From: Novosphingobium decolorationis
GTDB taxonomy: Bacteria; Pseudomonadota; Alphaproteobacteria; Sphingomonadales; Sphingomonadaceae
Assembly: GCF_018417475.1 (NCBI RefSeq)
Contig: NZ_CP054856.1
Location: 1,086,001 to 1,150,000 of the forward strand
DNA length: 64,000 nt
Direction: 5' to 3'
Part shown: positions 37,091-55,218 of the stretch, in pieces
Position numbering within the stretch: position 1 is the first letter of the stretch
Layout of the letters: each line of letters opens with the position of its first letter
Notes under the pieces: model-generated
Seen by the model: the letters and a program-made list of their open reading frames with translations, nothing else
What the model was told of the DNA's origin: nothing
Database searches by the model: none
Program-made: the position numbers and the translations under genes

Positions 37091-37110
37091 GCGAGGGCGA
37101 TGGCCCTCGC
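37091..37110. repeat. Half element, right (single terminal hairpin)
   Basis: An 8-bp stem GCGAGGGC/GCCCTCGC with GATG loop, preceded by CCGGGAGC. This mirrors the GGGGAGC before the CCGAGGG end of copies B and D. It is the inverted counterpart of the half element at 36138. Confidence 0.82.
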
Positions 37111-37230
37111 ATTTGTCTTCCTTCCCCTTCTTCGAGGTTCCCAGCCCCTTCGAAACGAAAAGAGGGCGAGCCCGAAGGCCCGCCCCCATGATCGTTCGTA
37201 ACTACGACAGCCCGGAGGCCGCGGCGGGGA

Positions 37231-38817: not shown

Positions 38818-38911
38818 TTTACAAATTCCTTGTCGTCGTCCCGCGCGTCCACACATGGACAGCTGGCGGGGAGCACAGGCGGCACATGGCCAGGCCTGCG
38901 GGAGAACCGGC

Positions 38912-38929
38912 CCCGGCGCAATGGCCGGG
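38912..38929 (-). other. Small hairpin between serC and serA
   Basis: CCCGGC and GCCGGG pair around a 6-base loop in the 126-bp serC-serA spacer. There is no T-run, so it may stabilise or process the transcript rather than terminate it. Confidence 0.4.
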
Positions 38930-38943
38930 ACACAGCGACAAAA

Positions 38944-40077
<1,134 letters not shown>

Positions 40078-40155
40078 TTAAGACTCTCCTCACAGAGAGC
40101 ACGCGCGGCGTTGGGACCGCGTGGCCCGAAGCCGCATCTAAAGCGTTGCCCGATC
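40078..40155 (-). promoter_or_regulatory. Structured leader of serC (candidate serC RNA motif)
   Basis: The leader on the minus strand has a GC-rich imperfect stem (GCCACGCGG near 40126-40118 against CCGCGCGTGC near 40109-40099). A second hairpin CTCTC-TGTGAG-GAGAG (40099-40084) follows, whose 3' arm contains the GGAG ribosome site 6-8 bp before the ATG. A conserved serC leader motif is known from alphaproteobacteria; the match is by memory and position, not a model search. Confidence 0.55.
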
Positions 40156-40286
40156 ATGTCAAACGATTCCCGCTGCCAATCGGGGCAATTGTACGATGGT
40201 CGGATACATCTCGGACCCAAAGGGCACTTTCGCGTGATGGCGCCCGCGCAGAGACGTCCGCCAGACACGAAAAAGAAGTTGTCTTT

Positions 40287-40399
40287 CAAGGGGCCATCGC
40301 CCCTTGACCCCAAGATCGGCACCCTCACCAGTCTCCGCCAAGGCGGCGCGACAAAGGTGAGCTTGACAGTTTGGGGAGCCCGAGGGCGATGGCCCTCGG
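40287..40399. repeat. Hairpin-ended intergenic element, copy B (113 bp)
   Basis: The left end is CAAGGGGC-CATC-GCCCCTTG (40287-40306) and the right end CCGAGGGC-GATG-GCCCTCGG (40380-40399). Inside are GACCCCA, CCCTCACC, AAGGTGAGC, TTGACAG and TGGGGAGC. It lies between the divergent serC and extensin-like genes, and its length equals that of copies C and D. Confidence 0.9.
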
Positions 40400-40525
40400 A
40401 AACATCTTTCTACCTTTTTCCGACTGCTGCCCTGCCCGCAGCGCCAACTCCTTGGAACTCCAGCGATCTCCACGGGTTGAGTGAGCAACCTCACGTTAAC
40501 CACGCAGGTGTGATAAGCTCGTTCC

Positions 40526-41209
40526 ATGCGCAGAAACCTGCTGATCCTGCCCCTTGTGGGCCTGCTCGGCGCCTGCATCGGCAGCCCGCAGCCGCCTGCC
40601 TCGCAGCGCGAGAGCGCACGGCAGTCCCAATCCTCGCGGCCATCGCGCGCCTACAGCCGCCCCAGCCCCGCCTTTGGCCAATGCCTGAGCGAACTGAGCG
40701 CGCAGCACGCCGCCTTCCAGCCGCTCGACGACAAGTACTTCGGCAAGGGCTGTTCAACCGTGAACACGGTGCGTCTGTCCAGCCTTGCCAGCGACACCGC
40801 CTCGCTTGGCCTCTCCAACCTGGGGCCGGTGACCTGCACGGTGGCGACCGGGTTTGCCGGATGGGCGCGCTTTGGCGTCGACCGCGCGGCCGAGCAGATC
40901 CTGGGCAGCCGCATCGCGCGGATCGAGACCTTCGGCAGCTACAACTGCCGCAACGTGGCGGGGACCGCGAAGCGTTCGGGCCATGCCACCGCCAACGCCA
41001 TCGACGTCTCCGGCTTCGTCCTTGCCGACGGACGGCGGATTTCGGTCCTGGACGACTGGGAACAGGGATCCGGCGCGGAAAAGCGCTTCCTGCGCGTCGT
41101 CCACGAGAGCGCCTGCAAGCGGTTCGGCATGGTGCTGGGTCCCGATTACAACGCCGCACATGCCAACCACTTCCACCTGGAAGCGAGCGGCGGGAGCTAT
41201 TGCCGCTAA
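40526..41209 (+). CDS. Extensin-like C-terminal family lipoprotein
   Basis: A 227-residue lipoprotein (lipobox LLGAC, Cys17), with a Ser/Arg/Pro-rich linker and then an extensin-like C domain. Marks are GSYNCRNVAGT, SGHATANAIDVSGFVLADGRRISVLDDW and HANHFHLE. The His/Asp/His arrangement resembles M15-type zinc peptidases, so a cell-wall amidase or carboxypeptidase role is likely but unproven. Cysteines in CTV, CRN, ACKRF and SYCR could form disulfides in the periplasm. Confidence 0.85.
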   Translation: MRRNLLILPLVGLLGACIGSPQPPASQRESARQSQSSRPSRAYSRPSPAFGQCLSELSAQHAAFQPLDDKYFGKGCSTVNTVRLSSLASDTASLGLSNLGPVTCTVATGFAGWARFGVDRAAEQILGSRIARIETFGSYNCRNVAGTAKRSGHATANAIDVSGFVLADGRRISVLDDWEQGSGAEKRFLRVVHESACKRFGMVLGPDYNAAHANHFHLEASGGSYCR

Positions 41210-41237
41210 TCGGCGGCTGTCCCCCAGCCCCCTTCCC

Positions 41238-41750
41238 TCAACTCCCGAAGGCGCGGATTTCAAAGGGGCGCGCGATGTCGAGCATGACTTGCGCGCAGGG
41301 GCGCCGCCGGGGCCCCTTGCCCGGCTTGATGAGAACGCGCGCCTTGCACAGGATCAAGGTCTGGGTCAGGCGCCAGTCCTCGGCCCATTCGGCGTAGATC
41401 GACGACAGGCTCGGCGGCAGGTAGCCGATGCCTTCGCCCGTGATGTGGACGGCGATGCGGTTGCAGGCAAAGCCATTGGGCGCGGTCTCGACCAGCCGGG
41501 CGAGAAAATCGCGCCCGAGCACTTTTGCCTGACTGGTCCCATGCGTGACGATCCCCGCCACGGCTGTGGGCGGCTCAGCCCCCCAGGCCAGCGCCGAATG
41601 GCCCCGGGCCAGCCGCACCACCTCATGCGTGTACTGCCCCTTGCCCGCGAGGAAGTAGCCCTTCCCTTCGGTGCGCACGTCGCGCATGCGCGCCGCCGAA
41701 CTGCTCTGCGCAGGCCCGCGGCCACCTTTTCTGAACAATCCAAGGCCCAT
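41238..41750 (-). CDS. Uncharacterised protein with a possible HIRAN-like core
   Basis: A 170-residue protein I do not recognise with certainty. The N-terminus is basic and Gly-rich. The central part has a pattern resembling HIRAN domains (NRIAVHITGEGIGYLPPSLSSIYAEW: Asn, AV-x-V, then GYLP and an aliphatic helix), but similarity is weak. I chose ATG 41750 because GGAG lies in the right place inside the preceding codons; ATG 41762 is an alternative. It lies between the extensin-like gene (convergent) and the Anbu operon. Confidence 0.55.
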   Translation of the reverse strand: MGLGLFRKGGRGPAQSSSAARMRDVRTEGKGYFLAGKGQYTHEVVRLARGHSALAWGAEPPTAVAGIVTHGTSQAKVLGRDFLARLVETAPNGFACNRIAVHITGEGIGYLPPSLSSIYAEWAEDWRLTQTLILCKARVLIKPGKGPRRRPCAQVMLDIARPFEIRAFGS

Positions 41751-41858
41751 GATCCGCTCCATTCTTGTGGGGGAGTCGAAGCCTTGGGGTACCACGCAGG
41801 CAGGCGCGTTAGCAGCGCCAACTAACTCGGAAATGGAGGTGTTTTGCGCTCTCGCGGA

Positions 41859-42623
41859 TCAGGCCGACAGGCCACCCGCATCGCCGTCCATGCGGTAATC
41901 GGGCAGCGCTTCCAACGCCTGGCGCAGCGCCTCGCCCCAGCCGTCCGAAACCGACTGCAGATAGGGGTCGCCCGCCTCGATGCGCCGCTCGTGGAGCGGG
42001 GTGAAGCGGTCGCGCTCGATCACCAGAAGATCGAGCGGGAGGCCCACCGAGAGATTGGCCTTGAGGGTCGAATCGAAGGACACGGTCAGCAGCTTCACCG
42101 CCGCCTCGAAGCTCATGTCGGGCTCGTAGCCGCGCAGGAGGATGGGGCGGCCGTACTTGGTCTCCCCGATCTGGAAGAAAGGGGTGTCGAAACTCGCCTC
42201 GATGAAGTTGCCTTCCGGGTAGATCATGAACAGGCGCGGCTCCATCCCTGCGATCTGGCCCGCCACGATGATCGTCGCGCTGAAGGTGCCCGCCGCCGCG
42301 CGCTGGCCGTTGTCCTCGACCCGGCTGGCGATCGTCTCGTGAAGGAGGTTGCCCACGATCGTGGCGACCTGGAACATCGTCTCGGCCTCGAGCAGCGAGT
42401 TGTGCCGGTCCGAAGGGGCCTTGTTGCGCTCTTCCAGCTGGCTGATCACGGCCTGCGTGGTGGCCAGGTTGCCCGCCGTCATGATCGTGATGATTCGCTC
42501 ACCGGGCACTTCCCAGTGGTTCATCTTGCGGAAGGTCGAGATATTATCGACCCCCGAATTGGTCCGCGTGTCGCTCATGCACACGAGGCCACGCTCCAGC
42601 ATCATGCCAACGCAGTACGTCAT
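41859..42623 (-). CDS. Anbu (ancestral β-subunit) proteasome-type peptidase
   Basis: A 254-residue Ntn-hydrolase of the Anbu/BPH family. MTYCVGMMLERGLV places Thr2 to become the N-terminal nucleophile after Met removal; SDTRTNSGVDNISTFRKM and ERIITIMTAGNLATTQAVI are the family's next blocks. Anbu forms open-ring or helical assemblies unlike HslV or the 20S core, and its substrates are not established. It ends the operon ATP-grasp, alpha-E, transglutaminase, Anbu, the classical Anbu neighbourhood in proteobacteria. Confidence 0.92.
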   Translation of the reverse strand: MTYCVGMMLERGLVCMSDTRTNSGVDNISTFRKMNHWEVPGERIITIMTAGNLATTQAVISQLEERNKAPSDRHNSLLEAETMFQVATIVGNLLHETIASRVEDNGQRAAAGTFSATIIVAGQIAGMEPRLFMIYPEGNFIEASFDTPFFQIGETKYGRPILLRGYEPDMSFEAAVKLLTVSFDSTLKANLSVGLPLDLLVIERDRFTPLHERRIEAGDPYLQSVSDGWGEALRQALEALPDYRMDGDAGGLSA

Positions 42624-42720
42624 GGAAGCTCTTGTTCCTGCAAACTTTTCTGAGGAGCGCCGGAGCCCTGCCCCGAACGTCTCACGTCCCGTAACCTGAA
42701 CAGACGGGACAGATCGACCT

Positions 42721-43596
42721 TCAGGCCGAGCCGCTTCCCGTCTGCTGCTGCTGCACCCCGTCGCCGGATTGCTGCTGCTGCTGTCCTCCTAGCAGCTTCT
42801 CCGCCACCGACAAATGGACATCGAGGCTCGTCGCGCCGCCGCCTTGGGAAATACCTGTAACCGGCGCAGCCTCGCGATAATCGCAACCCGTGGCTACGCG
42901 GATGTACCGCTCATCCGGGCAGACCTTGTTGGAGATATCGAAACCGACCCAGCCCAACCCCTGGACGTACGCCTCGGCCCAGCCGTGCCCGGCCTCCTGC
43001 TCCTCGCGGTCGTCCATCTTGAGATAGCCGCCCACGTAGCGCATCGGAATGTCGAGCAGGCGTCCGGCGCTGATGAAGATATGGGCGTGGTCCTGGCACA
43101 CCCCCTTGCCCGCCGCGAGAGCCTGCTCGGCCGTCGTCGTCGTGTCGGTCTCGCCCGGCAGGTACTCGACCGCCTCGCCCACCGCGTAGGACAGCGCGTG
43201 GAGGAACCCGAGCGTATCCTCCCGGTCCGCCTCGACCGAGGCGACGAGCTGGCGCACCTTGTTGCCCGCACGGGTAAGGTCGGTCGGACGCAGGAAGCAC
43301 CACAGCGGCATGTGCCCGCAATGCATGCCCGTGACCCCGTCGCTGATCGAGGTCTGCACCGAGCCCTTGCAGGTCACGATCACTTCGCGCGCGCCCGCCT
43401 CCAGCGAGACGAGCGCGGTGTGGTTGTTGTGCTGGTCGTCGTACTCGGCCTCGACCTTCGCGCCGGTCAGCTCCATCGTCCAGTCGAGCACCTCCTGCCC
43501 GTGGGTGGACTTGGGTTTCAGGCGCAGGCGCTGCAATCCATGCGAAACGGGGTCTTCGAAGACATAGCGGGTCGTATGGGAAACGGTCAGCAGCAC
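42721..43596 (-). CDS. Transglutaminase-like cysteine peptidase of the Anbu cluster
   Basis: A 291-residue protein. The N-terminal β-domain (LTVSHTTRYVFEDPVSHGLQRLRLKP) precedes a transglutaminase core with catalytic Cys167 (GKGVCQDHAH), His204 (AGHGWAEAYV) and Asp220 (GFDISN). An unusual Gln/Gly/Ser-rich tail follows, with two poly-Gln runs in the last 22 residues. In Anbu operons this protein is thought to act on a peptide made or tagged by the ATP-grasp and alpha-E partners. Confidence 0.9.
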   Translation of the reverse strand: MLLTVSHTTRYVFEDPVSHGLQRLRLKPKSTHGQEVLDWTMELTGAKVEAEYDDQHNNHTALVSLEAGAREVIVTCKGSVQTSISDGVTGMHCGHMPLWCFLRPTDLTRAGNKVRQLVASVEADREDTLGFLHALSYAVGEAVEYLPGETDTTTTAEQALAAGKGVCQDHAHIFISAGRLLDIPMRYVGGYLKMDDREEQEAGHGWAEAYVQGLGWVGFDISNKVCPDERYIRVATGCDYREAAPVTGISQGGGATSLDVHLSVAEKLLGGQQQQQSGDGVQQQQTGSGSA

Positions 43597-43605
43597 GAAG
43601 GCCCC

Positions 43606-44553
43606 TTACTCTGTGAAGCGGTAGTCGGCCGCGATCACGGCGCCGACCTCGTTGGTGCGGGTGATGAAGTCCTGCAGGAATTCGTGCAGGCCCTGGTCGA
43701 AGATTTCCTCGACATCGATCTGGTGCAGGCGCGAGAGCTTGTCGCGCAGGAGTTCGTGCGCGGACGTCTCTCCGCCGTACTCCTTGGCAAGGCCGGCCAG
43801 GTTGCTGCGGATCTTCTCGGCGCAGAACACCAGGCTGCGCGGGAACTGGCCATCCAGGATCAGGAAGCGGGCGATCTCGCGCGGGTCCATCGAGCCCGCG
43901 TTGAGCCAGGAGAAGGCCCGGTTGCCCGCAACCGAGCGCAGCAGCGTGTCCCACTGCTGGTTGTCGAGGTTGGAGCCGACCCAGGCGTTGGAAGGCAGCA
44001 GCACGTAGTACTTCACATCGAGAATGCGCGCGGTGTTGTCCGCGCGCTCGATGAAGGTGCCGATGCGCGCGAAGTTGTAGACCTCGTTGCGCAGCATGGT
44101 GCCTTCAAGCGCGCCGCGCACGAGCGTGCCGGTGCGCCGGATCGCGGTGAGCACTTCGCCCAGGTTCGTCTCGCGCACGGGCCGCGCGAGCATGTCCTTG
44201 AGCGTCATCCACCCCTCGTTCGTGGCTTCCCACACCGAGTTGGTGATGCTGGTGCGCACGACCCGCGCGTTGGTCCGCGCGTATTCGAGCATCTTGAGCA
44301 CCGAGCCCGGATTTTCGGGATCGCGCAGGATGTAGTTGAACACCTGCGGGCCGGAAAAATCGGAGTAGAGCGCCTCGTAATCCTCGATCAGGCCGGCCGT
44401 CGTCAGCACCGAGCGCCACTCGTCGTGCTGCGAATCCTTGCTCGATCCGGTGAGCGCGAGGTGGAAGCCCACGTCGATCAGGCGCGCGGTGTTCTCCGCC
44501 CGCTCCAGGTAGCGGGCCATCCAGTAAACGCCATTGGCAGCACGTCCGAGCAT
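43606..44553 (-). CDS. Alpha-E domain protein (DUF403)
   Basis: A 315-residue, mostly helical protein of the alpha-E family: LGRAANGVYWMARYLERAENTARLIDVGFHL at the N-terminus, then ERADNTARILDVKYYVLLP in the second half, an internal repeat rich in conserved Glu. It is always paired with circularly permuted ATP-grasp proteins and may support amide-bond formation. The ATG overlaps the ATP-grasp stop by one base (TGATG). Confidence 0.9.
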   Translation of the reverse strand: MLGRAANGVYWMARYLERAENTARLIDVGFHLALTGSSKDSQHDEWRSVLTTAGLIEDYEALYSDFSGPQVFNYILRDPENPGSVLKMLEYARTNARVVRTSITNSVWEATNEGWMTLKDMLARPVRETNLGEVLTAIRRTGTLVRGALEGTMLRNEVYNFARIGTFIERADNTARILDVKYYVLLPSNAWVGSNLDNQQWDTLLRSVAGNRAFSWLNAGSMDPREIARFLILDGQFPRSLVFCAEKIRSNLAGLAKEYGGETSAHELLRDKLSRLHQIDVEEIFDQGLHEFLQDFITRTNEVGAVIAADYRFTE

Positions 44554-45995
44554 CAGTCCTCCAGCACCCAGCTGTCCTTGGTGCCACCGCCCTGCGAGGA
44601 ATTGACCACCAGCGATCCTTTCTTGAGCGCGACGCGGGTGAGGCCGCCGGGCGTGATGTCGATCCCGTCGGGCGAGACCAGCACGAAGGGCCTCAGGTCC
44701 ACGTGGCGCGGCGCCAGCCCCTCGCGCGTGAAGATCGGCACCGTCGAGAGCGAGAGCGTGGGCTGGGCGATGTAGTTGTCGGGCTTGGCGCGCAGCTTCT
44801 GCTCGAAGGCGGCCAGCTCCTTCTTGGAGGAGGTAGGCCCGATCAGCATGCCGTAGCCGCCCGAGCCGTGGACTTCCTTGACCACCAGGTCTTTCAGGTT
44901 GTCGAGCACGTAGGCCAGCGAATCCGCTTCCGAACAGCGCCAGGTCGGCACATTGTTGAGGATCGGCTTTTCGCCCGTGTAGAATTCCACGATCTCGGGC
45001 ATGTAGCTGTAGATCGCCTTGTCATCGGCGATCCCTGTGCCCGGCGCGTTGGCGATGGTGACGCCGCCCGAACGGTAGACGTCCATGATGCCCGCCACGC
45101 CCAGCACCGAATCCGCGTTGAAAGTGAGCGGGTCGAGATAATCATCGTCGACACGGCGGTAGATGACGTCGATCGCCTTGTAGCCGGTCGTCGTGCGCAT
45201 CGCGACGCGCCCGTTCATGATGCGAAGGTCGCTGCCCTCCACCAGTTCCGCGCCCATCTGGTCGGCGAGGAAGGCGTGCTCGAAATAGGCCGAGTTGTAG
45301 ATGCCCGGCGTCAGCACCGCGACGACCGGGCGCTTGCCCCCGGCCGCGTTGTAGGCCGCGGGCGCACAGGCGCGCAGCGACCGGGCGAGACGGCGCGGGT
45401 AGTCGGAAACGGGGCGCACCGGGATCTGCGTGAACAGGTCCGGGAACATCGCCATCATCGTCTCGCGGTTCTCCAGCATGTAGGAGACGCCCGAGGGCGT
45501 GCGCGCATTGTCCTCCAGCACCATGAATTCATCGGGCCCCGTGCGCACGAGGTCGATGCCCACGATGTGGGTGTAGACGCCGCCCGGCGGGGTGAAGCCG
45601 ATCATCTGCGAGAGGAACGCCTCGTTGTTGCGCAAGGCGCTGATCGGGAGGCGTCCGGAGCGGATGATTTCCTGCCGGTGGTAAAGGTCCTGAAGGAAGG
45701 CGTTGATCGCGCGCACGCGCTGCTCGATGCCCTTGGTGAGCTTGCGCCATTCCTTCGCGGTGATGATCCGGGGGATCATGTCGAAGGGGATGAGGCGCTC
45801 TTCGGCGTCCGATTCCCCGTAGACATTGAAAGTAATTCCGATGCGCCGGAAGAAACGTTCCGCTTCCCCGTCCTGTCGTTTCAGCCAGGACTTGTCCTGC
45901 GCATCGTACCAATTGCGAAAATCGGCATAGGCGGAACGAACAGTTCCGTCCTCGTTGAGCATTTCGTCAAACTTCGGTGCGTTCGTCGTCGACAT
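44553..45995 (-). CDS. Circularly permuted ATP-grasp type 2 protein
   Basis: A 480-residue protein of the DUF404/DUF407 family. Blocks seen are GITFNVYGESDAEERLIPFDMIPRII, GFTPPGGVYTHIVGIDLVRT with VLEDNARTPSGVSYMLENR, and VVKEVHGSGGYGMLIGP for ATP binding. The order of ATP-grasp elements is circularly permuted. It likely forms peptide-like bonds with its alpha-E partner. It is the first gene of the Anbu operon; the 164 bp upstream should hold the promoter. Confidence 0.92.
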   Translation of the reverse strand: MSTTNAPKFDEMLNEDGTVRSAYADFRNWYDAQDKSWLKRQDGEAERFFRRIGITFNVYGESDAEERLIPFDMIPRIITAKEWRKLTKGIEQRVRAINAFLQDLYHRQEIIRSGRLPISALRNNEAFLSQMIGFTPPGGVYTHIVGIDLVRTGPDEFMVLEDNARTPSGVSYMLENRETMMAMFPDLFTQIPVRPVSDYPRRLARSLRACAPAAYNAAGGKRPVVAVLTPGIYNSAYFEHAFLADQMGAELVEGSDLRIMNGRVAMRTTTGYKAIDVIYRRVDDDYLDPLTFNADSVLGVAGIMDVYRSGGVTIANAPGTGIADDKAIYSYMPEIVEFYTGEKPILNNVPTWRCSEADSLAYVLDNLKDLVVKEVHGSGGYGMLIGPTSSKKELAAFEQKLRAKPDNYIAQPTLSLSTVPIFTREGLAPRHVDLRPFVLVSPDGIDITPGGLTRVALKKGSLVVNSSQGGGTKDSWVLED

Positions 45996-46159
45996 CGTGA
46001 CTCCCGTTTGTCCACGTGATGCAACATAGAACGGGACTTGCCAAGGACCCCCCGCTGCAGGTGCGAAATAAAAGTTTCACACCCTGCAGAAGGGTTAAGG
46101 CAGACAGGAGAAATGTGTTCCAGCCAGAAGCACAGGCTGTGACGACAGGCGCCGCGCGC

Positions 46160-46771
46160 TCAGGCGAGCAGCCCCCGGGACGCAAGGTCGGCGCGCAGGG
46201 TGGGCGCATCCTGGAAATGATGGACATTCCAGCCGAGCGCCGCCGCAGCCTCGATATTGGCCGCGTTGTCATCGATGAAGAGCATGGCCGAAGGCGCGTG
46301 GCCAAAGCGCTGCGCGGCCAGGTCAAAGATGCGATGGTCGGGCTTTGCAATCTTTTCATCGCCCGAGACAACGATCTCCCCGAACAGGTCGAAGAGCGGT
46401 TCCTGCGCGCGGTATTCGCGCCAGAAGGGCGAGGCGAAGTTGGTGATCGCGAACAGCGGCATTCCCGAAGCGGCGAGTTCGCGCACGATCTCGTGTGAGC
46501 CCGGGATATTGCCGGGGATCGTCTCGAGGAAGCGCGTGGCGTAGGCGTCGATCAGGTGATCGTGGCCGGGAAACTCGGCCTTGCGCTCGGCGACAAGCTC
46601 GGAAAGCTCGCGGCCCTCGTCATGCTGATGGTGCCATTTCTCGGTGACGACCGTGGTGCAGAACCATTCCAGCTCCTGCGGATCGTCGATGAGCTGGGCA
46701 AACAGGCGGCGCATGTCCCATTGGACAAGCACACGGCCCACGTCGAAAACAACGGCATCTATTCCGGACAC
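46160..46771 (-). CDS. HAD-IA family hydrolase (YihX-like)
   Basis: A HAD phosphatase of about 203 residues. Motif I is VVFDVGRVLVQWD, with one nucleophile Asp and Gly where the second Asp often sits, as in YihX and related members. Motif II is in ITNFAS, Lys in KPDHRIF, and motif IV in LFIDDNAANI. The start is uncertain: GTG 46771 is preferred because the alternative ATG 46789 lies inside the terminator hairpin of the upstream rpmJ gene. Its substrate is unknown, with sugar phosphates likely by family. Confidence 0.8.
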   Translation of the reverse strand: MSGIDAVVFDVGRVLVQWDMRRLFAQLIDDPQELEWFCTTVVTEKWHHQHDEGRELSELVAERKAEFPGHDHLIDAYATRFLETIPGNIPGSHEIVRELAASGMPLFAITNFASPFWREYRAQEPLFDLFGEIVVSGDEKIAKPDHRIFDLAAQRFGHAPSAMLFIDDNAANIEAAAALGWNVHHFQDAPTLRADLASRGLLA

Positions 46772-46778
46772 GGCAAAA

Positions 46779-46797
46779 CCCCCGCACATGGCGGGGG
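46779..46797 (-). terminator. Rho-independent terminator of rpmJ
   Basis: On the minus strand CCCCCGC pairs with GCGGGGG around a 5-base loop, followed by TTTT (46778-46775). It lies 78 bp past the rpmJ stop and directly abuts the HAD gene start. Confidence 0.85.
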
Positions 46798-46874
46798 TCT
46801 CATGTCATCAGTGCACAGACCGACCGCCGTAAGTTTCCCCGCCGCCGACAGGCCGCGGGGACAGGCGAATCAGA

Positions 46875-47000
46875 TCAGCCCTGGCGCGCCTTGAAGCGGG
46901 GCTGCGTCTTGTTGATGACGTAGGTGCGGCCACGGCGACGGATCACGCGGTTATCGCGGTGACGGCCCTTGAGCGACTTGAGGCTGTTGCGAATCTTCAT
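46875..47000 (-). CDS. rpmJ: Ribosomal protein bL36 (short, zinc-free type)
   Basis: A 41-residue protein, [17 protein letters not shown] at the start and [12 protein letters not shown] at the end. It is the YkgO-like L36 found in alphaproteobacteria, without the four cysteine/histidine zinc ligands of the classical form. It is a structural part of the 50S subunit. A single-gene transcript is likely, ended by the hairpin at 46779-46797. Confidence 0.95.
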
Positions 47001-47221
47001 GTCTTGTCTCGTCCAGGTTGGTCAGGCGGTTACCGACCGCCGGAAATTTGAAGTCGGCCCGTTACTGGTTGGCGCGCACAGAGTCAAGCATCGCGCCGCG
47101 CCAGCAACGGCAAAACGGGGCCATTCATCTGCCAGCAACGCACGCAGATGCTATGGCCTTCGCGGGTCCGCTCCCCTACCCAGATCGCGCCCGACACGCC
47201 AGCCCCAAGGAAAAGACGCAC

Positions 47222-48130
47222 GTGGCCTATCGAGATCTTTCGCCGAATCGCCTGTCCATCGCTGGCCCTGTGCGCCGCGCCGCCGGGCGGGTGCTGACGG
47301 TTTCGCTGGCCAGCGCCCTCCTGATCTCCCCCGCCCTCGCCCAGCCGGGCTGGGGTTCGCGCTATGGCGGTTGGGGCGGATGGGGCGGATACGGGGGCTA
47401 TGGTGGCTGGCGCGGGCCGGGCTGGAGCGGCCCGATCGCACCGATGGCGCCGCGTTCCAGCCATCGTGAGAAGGACCCGCGCGATGGGCGCGTCCAGGTC
47501 AGCCGATTCGTGCGCGCCGATGCGCTCGCCGATGCGCTGGGCCACGGCCCGATCAAGGTCGTCACCACCGCGCAGGAAAACACGCACGACGACGGCCCCG
47601 AGACCGTGCCGGGGGCGGACTGGGTCAATCCCGCCCAGCGCGCCCGCTTCGAGGCCGCCGTGGTCAACTCGCTTGTGGCCGCCGGCTACGACACGCTCAA
47701 CACCACCGGCCCCGACACGCAGGTCGCCGCGCTCACGATTCGCCAGCGCGTGCTCGTCCCCGCCGAGATGGACCACAAGCCGGTCAGCGGCGCCGCGGCC
47801 GTCTCGGTCGGCACGCTGGGCACGGCCTATGGCCTCTCGGTCAATGTCGACATGTCCAAGCCGCGCACCGCGCTTGTCTCGACCCGGCTTGAGCTGACCA
47901 TCCGCGACCGGGCCGAGGGCAAGGTGCTGTGGGAAGGCAACGCCGAGATGGCCACCTACGAAGGCGACGAGGACTGGAGCGAGGCCGCCATCGCGACGCG
48001 GCTTGCCGATGCCCTGCTCGACCGCTTCCCCGACGGCGAGCCGGTCACCGTGCCCGTCACCGAGATCGGCATCCCCGAGGCGCCCGAAGTCCTGCCCGAT
48101 CCCCAAAACGGCGCCCTTCCCGCCAATTAG
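47222..48130 (+). CDS. DUF4136-like secreted protein with Gly/Trp/Tyr-rich linker
   Basis: A 302-residue exported protein starting at GTG 47222 (AAGGA upstream). A long signal peptide ends at ISPALAQ. A Gly/Tyr/Trp-rich segment follows (WGGWGGYGGYGGWRG), then a DUF4136-type β/α domain (about 110-270), with RLELTIRDRAEGKVLWEGNAEM near its end. Relatives are small periplasmic or outer-membrane lipoproteins of unknown function. The next gene encodes a second, lipid-anchored protein of similar type. Confidence 0.72.
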   Translation: MAYRDLSPNRLSIAGPVRRAAGRVLTVSLASALLISPALAQPGWGSRYGGWGGWGGYGGYGGWRGPGWSGPIAPMAPRSSHREKDPRDGRVQVSRFVRADALADALGHGPIKVVTTAQENTHDDGPETVPGADWVNPAQRARFEAAVVNSLVAAGYDTLNTTGPDTQVAALTIRQRVLVPAEMDHKPVSGAAAVSVGTLGTAYGLSVNVDMSKPRTALVSTRLELTIRDRAEGKVLWEGNAEMATYEGDEDWSEAAIATRLADALLDRFPDGEPVTVPVTEIGIPEAPEVLPDPQNGALPAN

Positions 48131-48248
48131 CGCGCTTGCATCCCGGCGCCCGGACGCCCACATCAGGGGGATCGACGCACCGATCGGTGCCCGAACGATC
48201 CACGCGCCCCTCCCCTTTGGGAGAACCGCACTTTCCGGGAGATCCGCA

Positions 48249-48872
48249 ATGCCAAGGCTGCCCTTTCCCCTGCTTGCGCTCACCGCAGGCGGCGTGCTGG
48301 CAAGCCTTGCCGCCTGCACGACAACGCCTGTGGCGGGGCCTGTCGAAGTCACCCGTTTCCACCGCCTGCCCGCAGCGCCCGGCACCCCGCGCGGGGCCTT
48401 GCGCCTCGAGCTCGTGACGAGCGATGCCAGCAGCCTGGAGCTTGCCCCCTACCGCGCGGCCATCGCCGCCGAGCTGACCCGCGCAGGCTACCGCGTCCTT
48501 CCCGCCTCCGCGGGCGAGGGCACCGCGCAGAGCGTCGCGCGCCTGCGCCTCGAGCAGGAGCGTTTCCGGCCCTCCTCCGGCCGCTCGCCGGTTTCGGTGG
48601 GCGGCAGCGCGGGGACCGGTGGCTACGGATCGGGGGTGGGCCTTGGCATCGGCCTCGACCTCACGCCGCGTCCCGGCGAGCAGATCGAGACCCGCCTCTT
48701 CCTCACCATCGATGACGCCGCATCGGGTGCGCGCCAGTGGGAGGGCCGCGCCCACCGGATCGTTTCGAGCAAATCCGACCTTGCCGCGCCCGACGCGAGC
48801 GCCCAGGCGCTCGCCCGCGCCCTACTTGAAGGTTTCCCCGGCGAATCGGGCGAAACCATCCTCGTGAAATGA
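48249..48872 (+). CDS. DUF4136-like lipoprotein
   Basis: A 207-residue lipoprotein (lipobox SLAAC, Cys23). The mature part is short, with strands [15 protein letters not shown], a Gly-rich loop ([21 protein letters not shown]) and [24 protein letters not shown]. It resembles the preceding protein and may interact with it; function unknown. GGGAG lies before the ATG. The stop overlaps the next gene by ATGA. Confidence 0.72.
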
Positions 48873-50029
48873 CAGAAAAGACCAGAATGACCGACATACA
48901 GATCCACGCCGACTTCGACGCGGGCAACATCGAGGTGCTCTCGATCGAGGGCGCCACGGCTCGCCTCGCCATCCAGCGCGACCACATGAGCGACTTCGCC
49001 CAGTGGTTCCACTTTCGCGTCTCGGGCGCAGCGGGCCGCGAGCTGACGCTCAAGATCACCGGCCTCAATGGCTCGGCCTACCCGATGGGCTGGCCCGGCT
49101 ACAACGCCTGCGTCTCCGAAGACCGCGCGCTGTGGACGCGCACCCCCAGCACGTTCGCAGAGGGCGATGAAGGGGGCAGCCTGACGATCCGCTACACGCC
49201 CAGCTCCGACCTCGCCTGGTTCGCCTACTTCGCGCCCTACTCGATGGAGCGCCACCACGACCTTCTCGCCGACGCCGCGCAGTGCGAGGGCGTGACGCTG
49301 CGCACGCTGGGCACCACGCTCGACGGCCAGCCGCTCGATTGCCTCGAAATGGGCACCGGCCCGGTCAGCGTGTGGCTCTACGCCCGCCAGCATCCCGGCG
49401 AATCGATGGCCGAATGGTGGATGGAAGGCGCGCTCGACCTGCTGACCGATCCGGCGAACTCGGTGGGCCGCGAACTGCGCCGCCGCGCCAGCTTCCACAT
49501 CGTGCCCAACTGCAACCCGGACGGCTCGCGCCGCGGGCACCTGCGCACGAACGCGGTGGGCACCAACCTCAACCGCGAATGGGCCGAGCCCACCCCCGAG
49601 AAGTCGCCCGAAGTCCTCGCCATCCGCAACGCGATGGACGCGACCGGGGTCGACTTTGCGATGGACGTCCACGGTGACGAGGCGATCCCCGCCGCATTCC
49701 TCGCCGGCTTCGAGGGCATTCCCTCGCTGACGCCCGCGCAGAAGGCCGGGTATGATCGCTTTGGCGAACTGCTCGACCGCCGCACGCCCGATTTCCAGCG
49801 CAAGCTGGGCTACCCGACCGCGCCTGCAGGCAAGGGCAACCTCGCGATGTCGACCAACCAGGTCGCCGAACGCTTCGGTGCCGTCTCGATGACGCTGGAA
49901 ATGCCCTTCAAGGACCACGATCCGGCCGCCGATCCGCGCCAGGCCTGGAGCCCGGAACGCTCGATGCAGCTGGGCCAGGATTGCCTGGGCGCGCTGCTTG
50001 AATGGCTCGAAGAGCGCGACGCGGGCTGA
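48869..50029 (+). CDS. M14-family zinc carboxypeptidase (AGBL/CCP-like)
   Basis: A 386-residue enzyme with an N-terminal β-domain (about 10-130) typical of cytosolic M14 carboxypeptidases, including [18 protein letters not shown]. The peptidase core has zinc ligands His175 and Glu178 (ARQHPGESM) and His268 (DVHGDE), substrate-binding NLNREW, and a Glu in SMTLEMPFK. Bacterial members may remove C-terminal acidic or amino-acid tags; the substrate is unknown. The start overlaps the lipoprotein stop (ATGA), linking the genes in one operon. Confidence 0.88.
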
Positions 50030-50050
50030 GATAAGCCAGAAGAGAGAGTT

Positions 50051-50163
50051 CCGAGGGCCATCGCCCTCGGGCTCCCCGAACTGTCGACCTCACCTTTCAC
50101 GCGCCACGGTGGCCGAGAATGGTGAGGTCGCCGATTCGGGGGGCAAGGGGCGATGGCCCCTTG
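50051..50163. repeat. Hairpin-ended intergenic element, copy C (113 bp)
   Basis: The left end is CCGAGGGC-CATC-GCCCTCGG (50051-50070) and the right end CAAGGGGC-GATG-GCCCCTTG (50144-50163). The central inverted repeat is GACCTCACCT (50086-50095) against GGTGAGGTC (50121-50129). Its orientation is opposite to B and D, and it lies between the convergent M14 peptidase and cdd genes. Confidence 0.92.
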
Positions 50164-50186
50164 AAAAAACTTCTTACTGCTTGCGC

Positions 50187-50645
50187 TTACGCGAGGTTGG
50201 CCGGACCGAACGCGTGCGGGATCAGCACCGAGAGCGGCTCTTCCAGGACGCCGTCCGCGCCATCGCTCCACACCACCGGGTCGGTGCCGCCCAGCTGAGC
50301 GACCTCGTTGAGCATCTGGCGGCAGCGCCCGCACGGCGTCACCACCATGCCCTCGCCCGGATGACCGGGAGCCCCGCCGGTCACCGCAACCGCGACCAGC
50401 CGCCCGGCCTCACCGGGCTGGGACAGGATCTTGGCGACCGCCACCGTCTCGGCGCAGAGCGAGAGACCGTAGCTCGCGTTCTCGACATTGGCGCCGGTCA
50501 CCACCGAGCCATCTCCCATCAGGAGCGCGGCCCCCACATGGAACTTCGAATAGGGCGCATAGGCGCTGTGCGCGGCCTCGCGCGCCTGGGCCAGCAGCGC
50601 GTCGCGCTGGGCCTCGGAAAGGGAATCGGGCGTTGTCCTCGTCAT
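50187..50645 (-). CDS. cdd: Cytidine deaminase
   Basis: A 152-residue enzyme deaminating (deoxy)cytidine in pyrimidine salvage. Zinc ligands are Cys64 (SLCAET, with catalytic Glu66) and Cys105/Cys108 (PCGRC). VENASYG is the substrate loop. The C-terminal LIPHAFGPANL is typical of the homotetrameric form. ATG 50645 overlaps the stop of the GH25 gene (ATGA). Confidence 0.95.
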   Translation of the reverse strand: MTRTTPDSLSEAQRDALLAQAREAAHSAYAPYSKFHVGAALLMGDGSVVTGANVENASYGLSLCAETVAVAKILSQPGEAGRLVAVAVTGGAPGHPGEGMVVTPCGRCRQMLNEVAQLGGTDPVVWSDGADGVLEEPLSVLIPHAFGPANLA

Positions 50646-51361
50646 GACGCGGGCCTTATCACGAGCCAGCGCAGATCGCCCGGGGCAATCTGTGTCGAAA
50701 GCGCGCTGTTGGCCGTCCACAGCATCCAGTCACGCCCCGCGTAGGAGGGCGCAAAGCGGTCGCGCACCAGCCACAGGTTACGGTCGAGCTTGCGCGCGAT
50801 GGCGTAGCGCGCCTGGAAGCCTTGCGTGACCTTGAGGATCGTGGGCTTGCCGGTGTGCGTTTCGACCTGGTTGAGGAAGGTCATCAGCTCACTTTCGACC
50901 CGCGCGTCGGAGACCTTGCCCGCGCAGCCATCGGCCAGCGTGTCGAGCTCGACCGCGGGGGGCAGCAGATCCCCCTCGCGCGGGACCGTGGTGACGAAGT
51001 TGGCCGCCTGCTTTTCGGCCGGTTGGCACGGATCGTAGCGGTGGACCGCCCCCACCTGCATCCCGGCACCGCGCGCGGCCTCGAAGTTGGCGACGAAACG
51101 CGGATCGCGCTCGTCCACACCGGCGCTGGCATCGATATAGGCAAAGTCCGCGCCGATGGCCTTCAGCGACTTCCAGCTGACCTCGCCGTCGCGCGCGCCG
51201 ATTTCCACCCCTTGCGTGGGATAGAGCGCGCGGTCGGGCAGCCAGCTATGCGCCCGGTACCAGGCCCAGCCTGCGCCGCTAAGGCCCAGCACCGCCAGCA
51301 CCACGACGAAGCGCACCAGCCAGCGCAGCCGTGCGGCCGCCTTCTTCCTTCGCGATGTCAT
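50642..51361 (-). CDS. GH25 lysozyme-like protein with exchanged catalytic acids
   Basis: A 239-residue protein with an N-terminal membrane anchor (about 15-37), then a GH25 fold: GADFAYIDASAGVDERDPRFVANFEAARGAGMQVGAVHRYDPC. In canonical GH25 muramidases the first β-strand has DVS and the catalytic pair is D-x-E; here these read EIG (Glu53) and E138-L-D140 in PPAVELD. Both acids are kept but swapped, so activity is uncertain. It lies between the UPF0262 gene and cdd in one reverse-strand operon. Confidence 0.82.
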   Translation of the reverse strand: MTSRRKKAAARLRWLVRFVVVLAVLGLSGAGWAWYRAHSWLPDRALYPTQGVEIGARDGEVSWKSLKAIGADFAYIDASAGVDERDPRFVANFEAARGAGMQVGAVHRYDPCQPAEKQAANFVTTVPREGDLLPPAVELDTLADGCAGKVSDARVESELMTFLNQVETHTGKPTILKVTQGFQARYAIARKLDRNLWLVRDRFAPSYAGRDWMLWTANSALSTQIAPGDLRWLVIRPAS

Positions 51362-51423
51362 GCCTTGATTGCGTCCCGGGACCTGTCGTCAGCGCGTGCA
51401 GTGTAAGTGTGAAGTATCGTCTT

Positions 51424-51439
51424 CGATCGTTAACAATCG
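51424..51439. promoter_or_regulatory. Near-perfect palindrome centred on GTTAAC
   Basis: The 16 bases directly after the UPF0262 stop read CGATCGTTAACAATCG, palindromic except for one mismatched pair. It precedes the GH25 start by 63 bp and could be an operator or part of a weak terminator. Confidence 0.35.
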
Positions 51440-51922
51440 TCAACCACGGATATGGAGCACGCAGATCAGCGTGAACAGACGCCGCGCGGTCGGATGGTCG
51501 GTCTCGACCTTGCCGTCGAGACGTTCGATCAGGAGTTCGGCGGCGTCGTTGTGGATGCCGCGCCGGGCCATGTCGATGGTCTCGATCTCCTGCGCGGTGG
51601 CCTTGCGAATCGCCTGGTAGTAGCTCTCGCAGATCGCGAAGTATTCGCGGATGGGCCGGCGAAAGCGCGCCAGGCCCAGCACCAGCGTTTCCAGCTCGGC
51701 GCCCTTTTCGTCCGAAACCTGCATCGAAAGCCGCCCGTCGCGTACCGAAAGATGCAGGTGGTAGGGCCCCTCGTGCCCGCCTTCGTAGGCGCGCAGCGGC
51801 TTGAACAGGTTGTCCTCGATCAGGTCGAAGATCGCGATCCGGCGCTCCTGCTCGATATCGGCATTGCGCCACAGGATCGTGGTATCGTCGAGTTCGATAT
51901 GAGAGATGCGCGGGTCCGCCAT
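51440..51922 (-). CDS. UPF0262 family protein
   Basis: A 160-residue protein of the alphaproteobacterial UPF0262 family, with SHIELDDTTILWRNADIEQERRIAIFDLIEDNLF at the N-terminus, FRRPIREYFAICESYYQAI in the middle and MARRGIHNDAAELLIERL near the end. Its function is unknown. A strong AGAGGA is upstream of ATG 51922. It is divergent from dnaB and upstream of the GH25-cdd pair. Confidence 0.9.
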   Translation of the reverse strand: MADPRISHIELDDTTILWRNADIEQERRIAIFDLIEDNLFKPLRAYEGGHEGPYHLHLSVRDGRLSMQVSDEKGAELETLVLGLARFRRPIREYFAICESYYQAIRKATAQEIETIDMARRGIHNDAAELLIERLDGKVETDHPTARRLFTLICVLHIRG

Positions 51923-52077
51923 GATTCCTCTGGCCTTACGCGCTTGCAGCAGGACCGGGCAACCCTGACCTTTGGTGCCCTTGCCACGCCCCATCCACAA
52001 GCTGGGGAAAAAATTCGCCATCGCCTGCGCGTCGCCCCCTTGCCCGCTGGCGCGTGCGGGCGCATTGGGGAAGGCTT

Positions 52078-53604
52078 ATGGCACAGCAGGACGTTCTCAA
52101 ACTCGCCGAAGTCTCGAGCGACGACACGCAGGGCGCGCGCGCCCTTCCCTCGAACGTGGAGGCCGAAGCCGCGTTCCTGGGCGCGCTGCTGATCGACAAC
52201 CGCGTGCTGGAAGAACTCCAGACCCAGCTGGGCCCCCAGCACTTCTTCGAGCCCGTCCACGCCCGCATCTTCGAGCGCATCGTCACCCTGCTCGACCGCA
52301 AGGCGGTGGTCACTCCGGTCACGCTGCGCCCCTATTTCGAAGCCGACGAACAGCTGAAAGCGCTGGGCGGCGTGTCCTACCTCGCCCGCCTCACCGCCGA
52401 CGGACAGGGCCTCCTGGCCCCGCGCGAGCTGGCCGACCAGATCTACGACCTGGCGCTCCTGCGCGAACTGATCACGGTGGGCCGCACCCTCGTCGAAGGG
52501 GCGATGGACACCTCCGAGGCGGTCGAGCCGCAGCAGCAGATCGAACAGGCCGAAGCCGCGCTCTACAAGGTGGCAGAAGGCGCCGCCTCGGCCAACGAGG
52601 CCAAGAGCTTCGCGCAGGCCACCCACACCGCGATCTTCAACATCGAGAAGGCGTTCAATTCGGGCGGCAACATCTCGGGCAAGACGACCGGTCTTGAATC
52701 GGTCAACTCCAAGATCGGTGGCCTTCACGATTCCGACTTGATCATCCTGGCCGGACGTCCCGGCATGGGCAAGACCTCGCTCGTCACCAACATCGCGTTC
52801 AACACCTCGCAGCGCTATGTCGACGACATGGCCCTGGGGATCGAGCCGCGCCGCTCGGTGGGCGCGCCGACCGCCTTCTTCAGCCTGGAAATGAGCGCCG
52901 ACCAGCTGGCCACGCGTATCCTGGCCGAACAGTCGGGCATCAGCTCCGAAGCGCTGCGCATGGGCAAGATCAGCCGCGAGGACTTCCAGCAGCTCTCCTT
53001 TGCCAGCCAGCGCCTCGCCGAGCTGCCGCTCTACATCGATGACACGCCGGGCCTCTCGATCGCCGCGCTGCGCACCCGCGCGCGCCGCTTGAAGCGCCGC
53101 TACAACATCGGCCTCATCATCATCGACTACCTGCAGCTGCTCTCCGGCTCGGGCCGCGCCAACGACAACCGCGTGAACGAAATTTCGGAAATTTCGCGTG
53201 GCTTGAAGACGCTGGCGAAGGAACTGGAAGTGCCCGTGATCGCGCTCTCCCAGCTCAGCCGCGCGGTGGAAAGCCGCGAGGACAAGAAGCCGATGCTCTC
53301 CGACCTTCGCGAATCCGGCTCGATCGAGCAGGACGCCGACATGGTCTGGTTCGTCTTCCGCGAAGACTACTACGTCAACGCGACCGAGCCCAAGTTCCCC
53401 GCCGAAGGCGATCCGCCAGACGTGGTCGACAAGTGGGAAGCCTGGCGCCAGCGCATGGAGCAGGTCACCGGCCTTGCCGAACTGATCGTCGCCAAGCAGC
53501 GCCACGGCTCCACCGGCCGCGTGCGCCTGAAGTTCGAGGCGCGCATCACGAAGTTCTCGGACCTCGATGCCGACGATCCGCGCGGTGGGTTCGTTTCGGA
53601 CTAA
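52078..53604 (+). CDS. dnaB: Replicative DNA helicase
   Basis: A 508-residue hexameric 5'-3' helicase. The N-terminal DnaB-N domain (SNVEAEAAFLGALLIDNRVLEEL) is followed by a RecA-like core: Walker A GRPGMGKTS (226-234), FFSLEMSADQLATR, Walker B LIIIDYLQLL, and SQLSRAVESR with the arginine finger region. Length and motifs are normal, and no intein is present. ATG 52078 follows GGGGAAGG. Repeat copy D starts 13 bp after the stop. Confidence 0.97.
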   Translation: MAQQDVLKLAEVSSDDTQGARALPSNVEAEAAFLGALLIDNRVLEELQTQLGPQHFFEPVHARIFERIVTLLDRKAVVTPVTLRPYFEADEQLKALGGVSYLARLTADGQGLLAPRELADQIYDLALLRELITVGRTLVEGAMDTSEAVEPQQQIEQAEAALYKVAEGAASANEAKSFAQATHTAIFNIEKAFNSGGNISGKTTGLESVNSKIGGLHDSDLIILAGRPGMGKTSLVTNIAFNTSQRYVDDMALGIEPRRSVGAPTAFFSLEMSADQLATRILAEQSGISSEALRMGKISREDFQQLSFASQRLAELPLYIDDTPGLSIAALRTRARRLKRRYNIGLIIIDYLQLLSGSGRANDNRVNEISEISRGLKTLAKELEVPVIALSQLSRAVESREDKKPMLSDLRESGSIEQDADMVWFVFREDYYVNATEPKFPAEGDPPDVVDKWEAWRQRMEQVTGLAELIVAKQRHGSTGRVRLKFEARITKFSDLDADDPRGGFVSD

Positions 53605-53616
53605 GAAGATATTTTC

Positions 53617-53729
53617 CAAGGGGCCATCGCCCCTTGACCCCAAAACGGGCGACCTCACCTCTCGCGCGCCACGGCGGCTGCGAAAGGTGAGGTCGACAGT
53701 ATGGGGAGCCCGAGGGCGATGGCCCTCGG
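53617..53729. repeat. Hairpin-ended intergenic element, copy D (113 bp)
   Basis: The left end is CAAGGGGC-CATC-GCCCCTTG (53617-53636) and the right end CCGAGGGC-GATG-GCCCTCGG (53710-53729). The central arms GACCTCACCT (53651-53660) and AGGTGAGGTC (53685-53694) are a perfect 10-bp inverted repeat. It fills nearly all the space between the convergent dnaB and NCS1 permease genes. Confidence 0.93.
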
Positions 53730-53736
53730 AATCTCT

Positions 53737-55218
53737 TTATTCTGCGGCCTGGACTTCCCCGGCGGGCACCTCCTGCACGCCCATCCGCATGAGCCCGGCA
53801 TAGACGCCCAGCGCCACCAGCACGCCGACGAACCAGGCGTAGGTGTAGACCTGCCCCCAGAACCAGCCCACGCCGGCGAAGTTCGCCGGGAACGAGACGG
53901 CAAGGAAGCCCGGCACGTTGGGCGCGATGCCCGCGGCCAGCGCGATCAGGGCCTTGGGGTTCCAGCCATTGCCATAGCGATAGGGCCCGTGCTCCTGGTA
54001 GAGCCCCTCGACGTCGAGCCGTGTTCCGCGCACCAGCCAGTAGTCGGCAATGAGGATGCCCGCGATGGGCCCGAGCAGCGCGCCGTAGCCGGTGAGCCAG
54101 GTGTAGATGTAGCCGTTGGTGCTCTCCAGGAGCTTCCAGGGCATCATGAACAGGCCGATGAAGGCGGTGAACAGCGCCCCGGTGCGGTAGGAGATGCGGG
54201 TGGGGTAGAGCGCGGCAAAGTCATAGGCCGAGCACACCAGGTTCGCCGCGATGTTGCACGAGACGGTATCGACCGCGATGACGATGAGACCCAGCAGCAC
54301 GAAGGGCCCTGAGAGCGTTCCGGCCAGTTGCACCGGATCCCAGATCGCCTCGCCGTAGATCACCACCGTCGCCGAGGTCGTCATCACGCTGATCAGCGCG
54401 ACAAGGCCCATCGTCGGGGGCAGGCCCAGCGTCTGGCCGATCATCTGGTCCTTCTGGCTTTTGGCGAAGCGCGTGAAGTCGGGAATGTTGAGTGCCAGCG
54501 TCCCCCAGAAGCCGACCATGGCGGTGAGCGAGGGCAGGAAGACCAGCCAGAACTCGCCTTCGCGCGCGCCGCCCGGAACGAAGGCCGAGGGGCTGGAGAA
54601 GATCGGCCCGACACCGCCTGCGGCATCGAGCGCCCACCACAGGAGGCCGAAGCAGGCCACCATCTTCAAGGGCGCGGTCCAGGTCTCCAGACGCCTGATT
54701 GTGAGGATGCCCTTGCGCACGAAGGCCAGCTGGATCGTCCAGAACGCCAGGAACGCGAGCAGTTCACCCAGGCCAATGCCGAAGAAAGGCAGCGGGCTTC
54801 CGCGCATGTCCGCGCCGAGGAAGATGCCCAGCAGGGTGAGGAGCGCCTCGCCCCCGATCCAGGTCTGGATGCCGTACCACCCGCAGGCGACGAGCGCGCG
54901 GGCCGCGGCCGGAAGGCGCCCGCCCACGGTCCCGAAGGAGGCGCGCACCAGCACCGCGAAGGGCACGCCGTAGCGCGCGCCGGGGTGCCCGATCAGCAGC
55001 ATGGGGATGAGGATGATCACGTTGCCCAGGATGACCACGCTGGTCGCCTGGAGCGCGGACATGCCCTGCTCGATCAGCCCTGCCGCCAGCATCCAGGTCG
55101 GCACCGCCACGATCATGCCCACCCACAGCGCGGCAAAATGGTACCAGCGCCAGGTGCGCTGCTCCGGCCCGCTGGGCGCCAGATCCTCGTTCCACAGCGA
55201 ATCGCGTCCCTCGCTCAC
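53737..55218 (-). CDS. NCS1 family purine/cytosine permease
   Basis: A 493-residue symporter with about 12 membrane helices. The N-terminal signature RTWRWYHFAALWVGMIVAVPTWMLA, GHPGARYGVPFAVLVRASFG, and ALNIPDFTRFAKSQKDQMIGQ are characteristic of NCS1 (codB/Mhp1-like) proteins. The likely substrate is a nucleobase, hydantoin or allantoin; the neighbours give no further clue. GTG 55218 is chosen because a GAGGGGG stretch lies at the right distance. Confidence 0.9.
   Translation of the reverse strand: MSEGRDSLWNEDLAPSGPEQRTWRWYHFAALWVGMIVAVPTWMLAAGLIEQGMSALQATSVVILGNVIILIPMLLIGHPGARYGVPFAVLVRASFGTVGGRLPAAARALVACGWYGIQTWIGGEALLTLLGIFLGADMRGSPLPFFGIGLGELLAFLAFWTIQLAFVRKGILTIRRLETWTAPLKMVACFGLLWWALDAAGGVGPIFSSPSAFVPGGAREGEFWLVFLPSLTAMVGFWGTLALNIPDFTRFAKSQKDQMIGQTLGLPPTMGLVALISVMTTSATVVIYGEAIWDPVQLAGTLSGPFVLLGLIVIAVDTVSCNIAANLVCSAYDFAALYPTRISYRTGALFTAFIGLFMMPWKLLESTNGYIYTWLTGYGALLGPIAGILIADYWLVRGTRLDVEGLYQEHGPYRYGNGWNPKALIALAAGIAPNVPGFLAVSFPANFAGVGWFWGQVYTYAWFVGVLVALGVYAGLMRMGVQEVPAGEVQAAE

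Follow-up and report, generated by a model that had tools for sequence, protein, structure and literature searches.

The stretch of DNA analyzed here (the window) comprises 64,000 nucleotides (nt) of Novosphingobium decolorationis, positions 1,086,001 to 1,150,000 of NZ_CP054856.1, and is part of a 4.64-Mb contig in a 4.75-Mb genome of two contigs (host genome, G000). It harbors a family of short elements in which two small hairpins, of an A and a B type, face each other. Three copies, which we call B, C and D, are exactly 113 bp long, and each carries one CAAGGGGC/GCCCCTTG and one CCGAGGGC/GCCCTCGG hairpin with a CATC or GATG loop; coordinates and sequences agree with an earlier note made from the letters of the window alone, as does the varying orientation (copies B and D on the plus strand, C on the minus strand). 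The central inverted GACCTCACCT pair that the note gave to every copy is degenerate in copy B. The copies lie between genes as claimed: copy C takes up the space separating two convergent genes, one M14-peptidase-like and the other cytidine-deaminase-like, copy D is the whole gap between the convergent dnaB and cytosine/purine permease genes, and copy B sits between less certain gene calls. The best named matches to DnaB all belong to Novosphingobium, the first being N. profundi EaN21-2 (G166) at 99%. The window also contains a 207-bp pair and a facing pair (36138-36157/37091-37110) that spans 973 bp and encloses an open reading frame (ORF). The features are as follows.

40287 to 40399, plus strand: copy B, 113-bp doublet, A hairpin left and B hairpin right; N. 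profundi (G166) has the same site.
50051 to 50163, minus strand: copy C, 113-bp doublet, B hairpin left and A hairpin right; same site in G166.
53617 to 53729, plus strand: copy D, 113-bp doublet, A hairpin left and B hairpin right; same site in G166.
25504 to 25710, minus strand: 207-bp longer pair, B hairpin left and A hairpin right; convergent neighbors.
36138 to 36157, strand unassigned: left (L) hairpin CCGAGGGCCATCGCCCTCGG of the cargo-bearing pair.
37091 to 37110, strand unassigned: right (R) hairpin GCGAGGGCGATGGCCCTCGC of the cargo-bearing pair.
36260 to 36880, minus strand: ORF of 206 amino acids with a weak TonB_C match, enclosed by the 36138/37091 hairpins; G166 DNA differs there.
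40269 to 40278, strand unassigned: purine-rich outer flank of copy B, the opposite strand being the pyrimidine tract.
53730 to 53743, plus strand: AA and pyrimidine-rich outer flank of copy D, overlapping the end of the permease gene.

With up to three mismatches, the two hairpins gave 8 and 12 strand-matches in the window vs. shuffled means of 0.06 and 0.21, and these counts were reached by none of 100 shuffles. Among window gaps of at least 30 bp, an element is present in 3 of the 6 between convergent genes, in 1 of the 22 between tandem genes and in 1 of the 9 between divergent genes. Counted genome-wide, as the earlier note had proposed, the family is not limited to the window: the pattern AGGGSNATSSCCCT occurs at 148 places (reversed control, 0), the A-type hairpin has 108 forward-strand matches with at most one mismatch, and blastn of the genome gave at least 43 distinct places (best 40 of 241 candidates scored), the element loci matching one another over their full length at 82-91%. 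The exact 18-mer CGAGGGCGATGGCCCTCG is present in 44 of 149 same-genus genomes, with 129 hits in the host, 156 in G166, 119 in N. rosa (G030), 41 in G131, 17 in N. organovorum (G002) and 1 to 4 in each of the remaining positives; the family is, in other words, high-copy in a few Novosphingobium and low-copy in others. In a family-wide sample, 3 of 397 genomes were positive for the 18-mer, two of them Novosphingobium (the host counted), and blastn of copy D against 61 genomes (the host and relatives) found 10 positive, all Novosphingobium, and 0 of 24 others. A phage search left the element unmatched, and a plasmid search returned a single Novosphingobium record with 4 places, the 256-kb plasmid AP026900.1 of Novosphingobium sp. 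MBES04. Elsewhere in the host, a tandem row of four 113-bp doublets with a period of 169 bp lies at G000:C1:1417095-1417714 (L085), and four B hairpins spaced ~969 bp apart lie at G000:C1:1616057-1619070 (L084); we rejected the latter as a cargo series, the spacing being that of a hairpin-anchored tandem duplication of a gene stretch.

We catalogued 58 merged stretches (275,950 bp) with 166 hairpin candidates, 146 of which have a perfect 8-bp stem and a few of which are doubtful; as hairpins were found by pattern, conservation among the listed copies is partly by construction. Their order is mostly L (plus-strand CATC) then R (GATG), facing. Among 65 facing pairs of at most 260 bp, 49 measure 113 bp, 5 measure 112-115, one 94 and 10 measure 183-207, which is not the picture of ordinary terminators with no conserved length that the earlier note had set against its own proposal. 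GGGGAGC or GGGGTC lies interior to each hairpin; CA, CC or GC forms the base of the stem, and either ACCCC or GCTCCCC makes up the tail. The outer flank consists of AA followed by a pyrimidine tract of variable exact sequence: among 160 ends, A stands at +1 in 86% (and also marks +2), the tract is T-rich mainly from about +6 to +12 rather than directly after the stem, and pyrimidines peak at 91-95% at +9 to +12. The listed flanks, purine-rich on the left and pyrimidine-rich on the right, showed no target-site duplication by eye, no formal test being applied. Outward-pointing hairpin units of this kind flank a spacer that evolves fast but holds its length, and the 65 pairs, like the consensus of 61 distinct copies, comprise the inverted pair of ~20-nt hairpins with a set-length spacer that characterizes REPINs (inverted doublets of repetitive extragenic palindromes, REPs).

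Placement relative to genes was judged from the calls of a codon-usage script, by which 57 of 61 pairs could be classified (of the other four, 3 stood at the edge of a stretch and 1 ran into a called gene): 34 are convergent, 20 tandem and 3 divergent. In convergent pairs the median distances to the two stop codons are only about 25 and 22 nt, so that the element is often nearly the whole gap, and copies near both 3' ends of convergent genes are also what is seen in CGTC REPs. The genome-wide, intergenic, fixed-length doublet in both orientations, resembling bacterial interspersed mosaic elements (BIMEs) and REPINs, thus stands as the earlier note had it.

The comparison with the sister species G166 (156,864 aligned columns at 93.6% identity, some stretches counted twice) bears on the age of these elements. 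At the 19 element sites within aligned stretches, hairpins stand at the same place in both species, and the long alignments with N. profundi showed no new insertion, though differences in presence may hide at alignment ends (alignments break at large gaps; five of 9.5 to 20 kb are unbroken). Substitutions were counted at 14 of the 19 sites, 5 being left out for length, a single hairpin or inversion, and this comparison is less exposed to pattern bias because a site was entered when either species had the hairpin. Stems differ at 10/448 positions (2.2%), loops at 4/111 (3.6%), inner boxes at 5.7%, the conserved arm at 12.9%, the outer flank at 20.1%, the other arm at 22.9% and the centre at 97/359 (27.0%). 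The corresponding values are 2568/16468 (15.6%) for fourfold sites and 0.9% for second codon positions; the centre hence diverges faster than fourfold sites. Judged by stems, fourfold sites and centre, the elements are evidently old and their hairpins kept by selection. Of the recent spread or strong selection offered by the earlier note, the latter therefore holds for the hairpins and the former does not, given their presence in both species at the 19 sites. Changes in the pyrimidine tract favor C<->T, with a ratio of 45:37 where fourfold sites have 834:1344 (p=0.004). The fast change of the centre probably stems in part from flipping of arms and centres, since at 3362309 the element is inverted between G000 and G166, with a hybrid hairpin, and at 3464571 G166 has the whole element and G000 retains just a 20-bp hybrid hairpin.

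We also read 28 of 80 loci downstream of dnaB by eye. The element is present at the site of copy D in N. profundi EaN21-2 and, in degenerate form, in N. sp. BW1; the pair in N. clariflavum and in Sphingomonas sp. IC081 has the same layout and is built of other hairpins, and most remaining loci have a different downstream gene. Two of the dnaB-downstream loci (L223 and L224) hold facing pairs that share the layout and differ in their stems, which suggests that several such hairpin-pair families may exist in Novosphingobium.

Taken together, we propose, with a probability of roughly 0.6, that these elements are an orphan REP-doublet family that now serves as a two-way transcript-end boundary. 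Each element can be read as two inverted copies of one oriented unit, i.e. GGGGAGC/GGGGTC, an 8-bp stem with a GATG loop, AA and a pyrimidine tract. Once transcribed, an outward hairpin with its pyrimidine tract would end or protect the RNA of each strand, so that a single element could be the 3'-end boundary of both convergent genes. We surmise that past spread of the family relied on an enzyme that recognized the hairpin and is now lost, distant or unknown. The boundary role may now hold the copies in place, their centres being reshaped meanwhile by inversions, deletions and recombination between repeats.

Five folds lie well beyond shuffles (z -4.8 to -8.7) and take the form of two local hairpins or of one long hairpin, the latter being possible because the L and R cores are reverse complements; among minimum-energy folds of the 65 pairs with flanks, both local hairpins are kept in 39 and not in 26. 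The L-R loop combinations (CATC-GATG 48, CATC-AATG 8, CATT-AATG 4, CATT-GATG 1, four others once each) are associated (Fisher p=0.004 on the first four), and kissing or long pairing of L and R is a possibility; we put it no higher because the A hairpins of G002 have other loops and the copies are related. Above its gathering scores Rfam matched only a tRNA in the window and thus no element; copy D gave two weak miRNA hits far under them.

Several observations weigh against the proposal. The pairing of the central stem shows no covariation, and within the hairpin stem only pair 8/13 clearly changes on both sides (53 C-G vs. 8 T-A in 61 copies). The pyrimidine tract begins several bases past the stem, unlike that of a classic intrinsic terminator, and its rate of Y<->R change is not significantly under that of fourfold sites (p=0.10). 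We tried the flanks as an outer stem and rejected it, since their in-register complementarity was reached by 895 of 1000 shuffles and their free duplex energy was barely better than shuffled (14 of 200 shuffles did as well). A terminator scan of 35000-54999 did flag the R hairpins at 37091 and 53710, flags that carry no weight because the scan made 9 hits in total vs. a shuffle mean of 13.3. Lastly, N. organovorum and N. profundi F72 have the same convergent permease neighbor of dnaB with neither element nor purine tract.

A different reading starts from the long L..R pairs, which enclose genes. The hairpins could be the ends of moving or exchanged gene cassettes and the 113-bp doublets their empty derivatives, related to them as miniature inverted-repeat transposable elements (MITEs) are to transposons; we hold this at slightly under even odds, and it is compatible with doublets that later came to act as transcript boundaries. 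In its favor, G166 has unrelated cargo within the same hairpins at two loci. At the window pair its interior is 1,643 bp of unrelated DNA; identity with G000, counted from the outer edges of the two hairpins, covers 31 bp on the L side and 39 bp on the R side and so stops 11 and 19 nt into the interior, respectively; at 1354125-1355999, G000 has DUF4747 and a membrane-protein-like ORF and G166 a ParA-like ATPase and a SIR2 protein, with about 247 bp shared inside the L and 31 bp inside the R hairpin. We further surveyed 18 of the 39 positive Novosphingobium genomes with few copies, which yielded 20 loci, and tested 18 hairpin sites (L145, at contig ends, L155 and repeat copies in L142 and L151 were left out). 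GC content on the inner side (300-1500 bp) falls below 0.60 at 15 of 18 sites and on the outer side at 0 of 18 (means 0.52 vs. 0.67, Wilcoxon p=4e-5); L155 is an empty 83-bp pair with no GC dip, and counting it gives 15/19. In 6 of 19 rows the inner side holds a partner hairpin, either the same or a variant, while the 6 control hits in 212,808 bp are confined to L151 (three family copies and three of one repeated sequence). PADLOC, which covered 22 of 27 listed cargo ORFs (E at most 1e-3), matched 6 of 15 low-GC loci (Drt2, HNH, SIR2/PDC-S25, a TIR effector, KAP/PDC-S49 and a short ParA match), and Pfam added SocA_Panacea and HSDR_N in 2 more, bringing defense-, restriction- or antitoxin-type matches to 8 of 15 (L142, L146, L153, L154, L156, L158, L160 and L161), with KAP ATPase, SIR2 and Drt2 among the defense-like cargo bordered by hairpins. 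At one locus of N. resinovorum (G029; L142 4345-6456), a Drt2-like reverse transcriptase in two frames lies inside identical facing hairpins. Downstream of lepA, the interior in G106 (L359), which has a single hairpin, compared with its close relative G160, is missing exactly from the L-hairpin base; the 1818-bp gene beside low-copy hairpins had been taken for typA, which we rejected as its translation reads as LepA (by eye, no family search). The same survey has its other side: partner hairpins were not found in 13 of 19 rows, 2 of the 15 low-GC loci have other domains (L144 and L150) and 5 have no PADLOC or Pfam family match (L143, L147, L148, L149 and L151), and the PADLOC rates are those of the cargo ORFs alone. 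The cargo ORFs searched, which cover part of the loci and ORFs, gave no transposase or integrase match, and target duplication was not noticed. In a reverse test of 30 SIR2_2 loci of the genus, an outward generic hairpin stood at only 3 (inward control hits, 2; the strict test did not flag L345, which is the gene of L153), so that most such genes travel otherwise, and ordinary recombination through flanking genes can also swap cargo at the same site. More specifically, and at somewhat longer odds, we tentatively suggest that the hairpin with its outward pyrimidine tract may form both ends of a previously unrecognized gene cassette, in which foreign, often anti-phage-like genes between facing hairpins at shared sites (e.g. 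downstream of lepA) are exchanged between strains, the hairpins marking the boundaries, and have no mover of their own; the 113-bp doublets would be empty, domesticated forms which reached a few species and today act as insulators of convergent genes.

Three further explanations concern the doublets themselves. Absorption of supercoils and binding of nucleoid proteins are roles proposed for BIMEs, and our elements might likewise be DNA-level sites between convergent genes, for supercoils or for a nucleoid protein or methylase. Their convergent placement and strong single-strand folds would fit, as would GANTC, which we take to be a CcrM-type site and which straddles the junction on the outer side of the hairpin in 36 of 175 ends (roughly double the 9.7% expected from the columns); we nevertheless consider this unlikely, as an outward pyrimidine tract on both sides reads more easily at the RNA level. 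That the hairpins are ordinary intrinsic terminators, alike by convergence rather than a dispersed family, would account for their position after stop codons and their outward orientation with pyrimidine tails, but hardly for the common sequence beyond the stems, the 113-bp spacing and the full-length matches between loci, and standard terminators, in which T immediately follows the stem, are present at some other genes here; we regard it as very improbable. Equally hard to credit are active REPINs driven by a REP-associated tyrosine transposase (RAYT), even though REPINs, too, are described as inverted doublets whose ends are conserved and whose spacer is free but keeps its length (PMC3116915, in the part available). 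The Y1_Tnp profile (PF01797), positive in 5 of 14 control genomes and in 48 of 149 genus genomes, had 0 matches in G000, and G002, G030, G131 and G166 are, by elimination, also not among the 48. The element hairpin was not seen within the fetched flanks of 30 Y1 loci of Novosphingobium (six RAYT-like in size), and none of 175 ends has a GTAG/GTGG tag at the hairpin foot, be it in the four inner or the four outer bases. The absence of a RAYT gene that the earlier note reported for the window is hence borne out genome-wide, including for a Y1 gene bounded by the same ends; its likeness to REP doublets (paired, inverted, of fixed length) stands, and mobilization by RAYT does not.

To our knowledge, the persistence of REP-like sequences without RAYT is an open question in the field. 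An orphan doublet family with a boundary role would be a clean case of it, combining many copies, a sister species with ~94% identity where aligned, measurable selection on hairpins and no Y1 enzyme found. The cassette link may, still more tentatively, be the most novel part of the findings; if hairpins do bound exchangeable defense cassettes, they would be a new kind of hotspot boundary and a route to such genes. In the open-licence literature we found no description of palindromic intergenic repeat elements in Novosphingobium or of hairpin- or REP-bounded defense cassettes.

Among known families, the CIR of Caulobacter and the RIMEs of Rhizobium are ~100-bp intergenic inverted repeats of Alphaproteobacteria, CIRs containing GANTC; our elements resemble them by that general description, with which, rather than with their sequences, the comparison was made. 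They are short, non-coding, dispersed inverted repeats as MITEs are, unlike which they have no parent transposon that we found and no target duplication noticed by eye. With REPINs and BIMEs, as far as the available parts of the sources describe them, they share ~20-nt inverted hairpins, conserved ends, a length-conserved spacer, intergenic position, high copy number and tandem clusters (PMC3116915, PMC2817692, PMC6006769), and they differ in that G000 has neither RAYT nor a GTAG/GTGG foot and in their usually two hairpin types, outer pyrimidine tracts and gene-bearing pairs. Alphaproteobacterial CGTC REP dimers apparently lacking a dedicated transposase are already described, with a CGTC-2 family in N. 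aromaticivorans and, in S. wittichii, most convergent copies <20 bp from both 3' ends (Di Nocera 2013, PMC3733652, in part). Our elements are like these in their 8-bp stem, 4-nt loop, dimers, convergent 3'-end placement and lack of a transposase found, and unlike them, on the same partial source, in lacking AT at the base of the stem, a CCA tail and a CGTC/TGTC/CCTC tag (CGTC/TGTC in either sense in 0 of 175 ends; for CCTC a single inner GAGG, its reverse). A separate CGTC-type REP lies in the stretch starting at G000 1207431. Because neither the tag nor the transposase that defines the two groups is present, we file the elements outside both, and are inclined to see in them an orphan, untagged REP-doublet (BIME/REPIN-like) family that is probably a new variant beside REPINs and CGTC REPs rather than a member of either.

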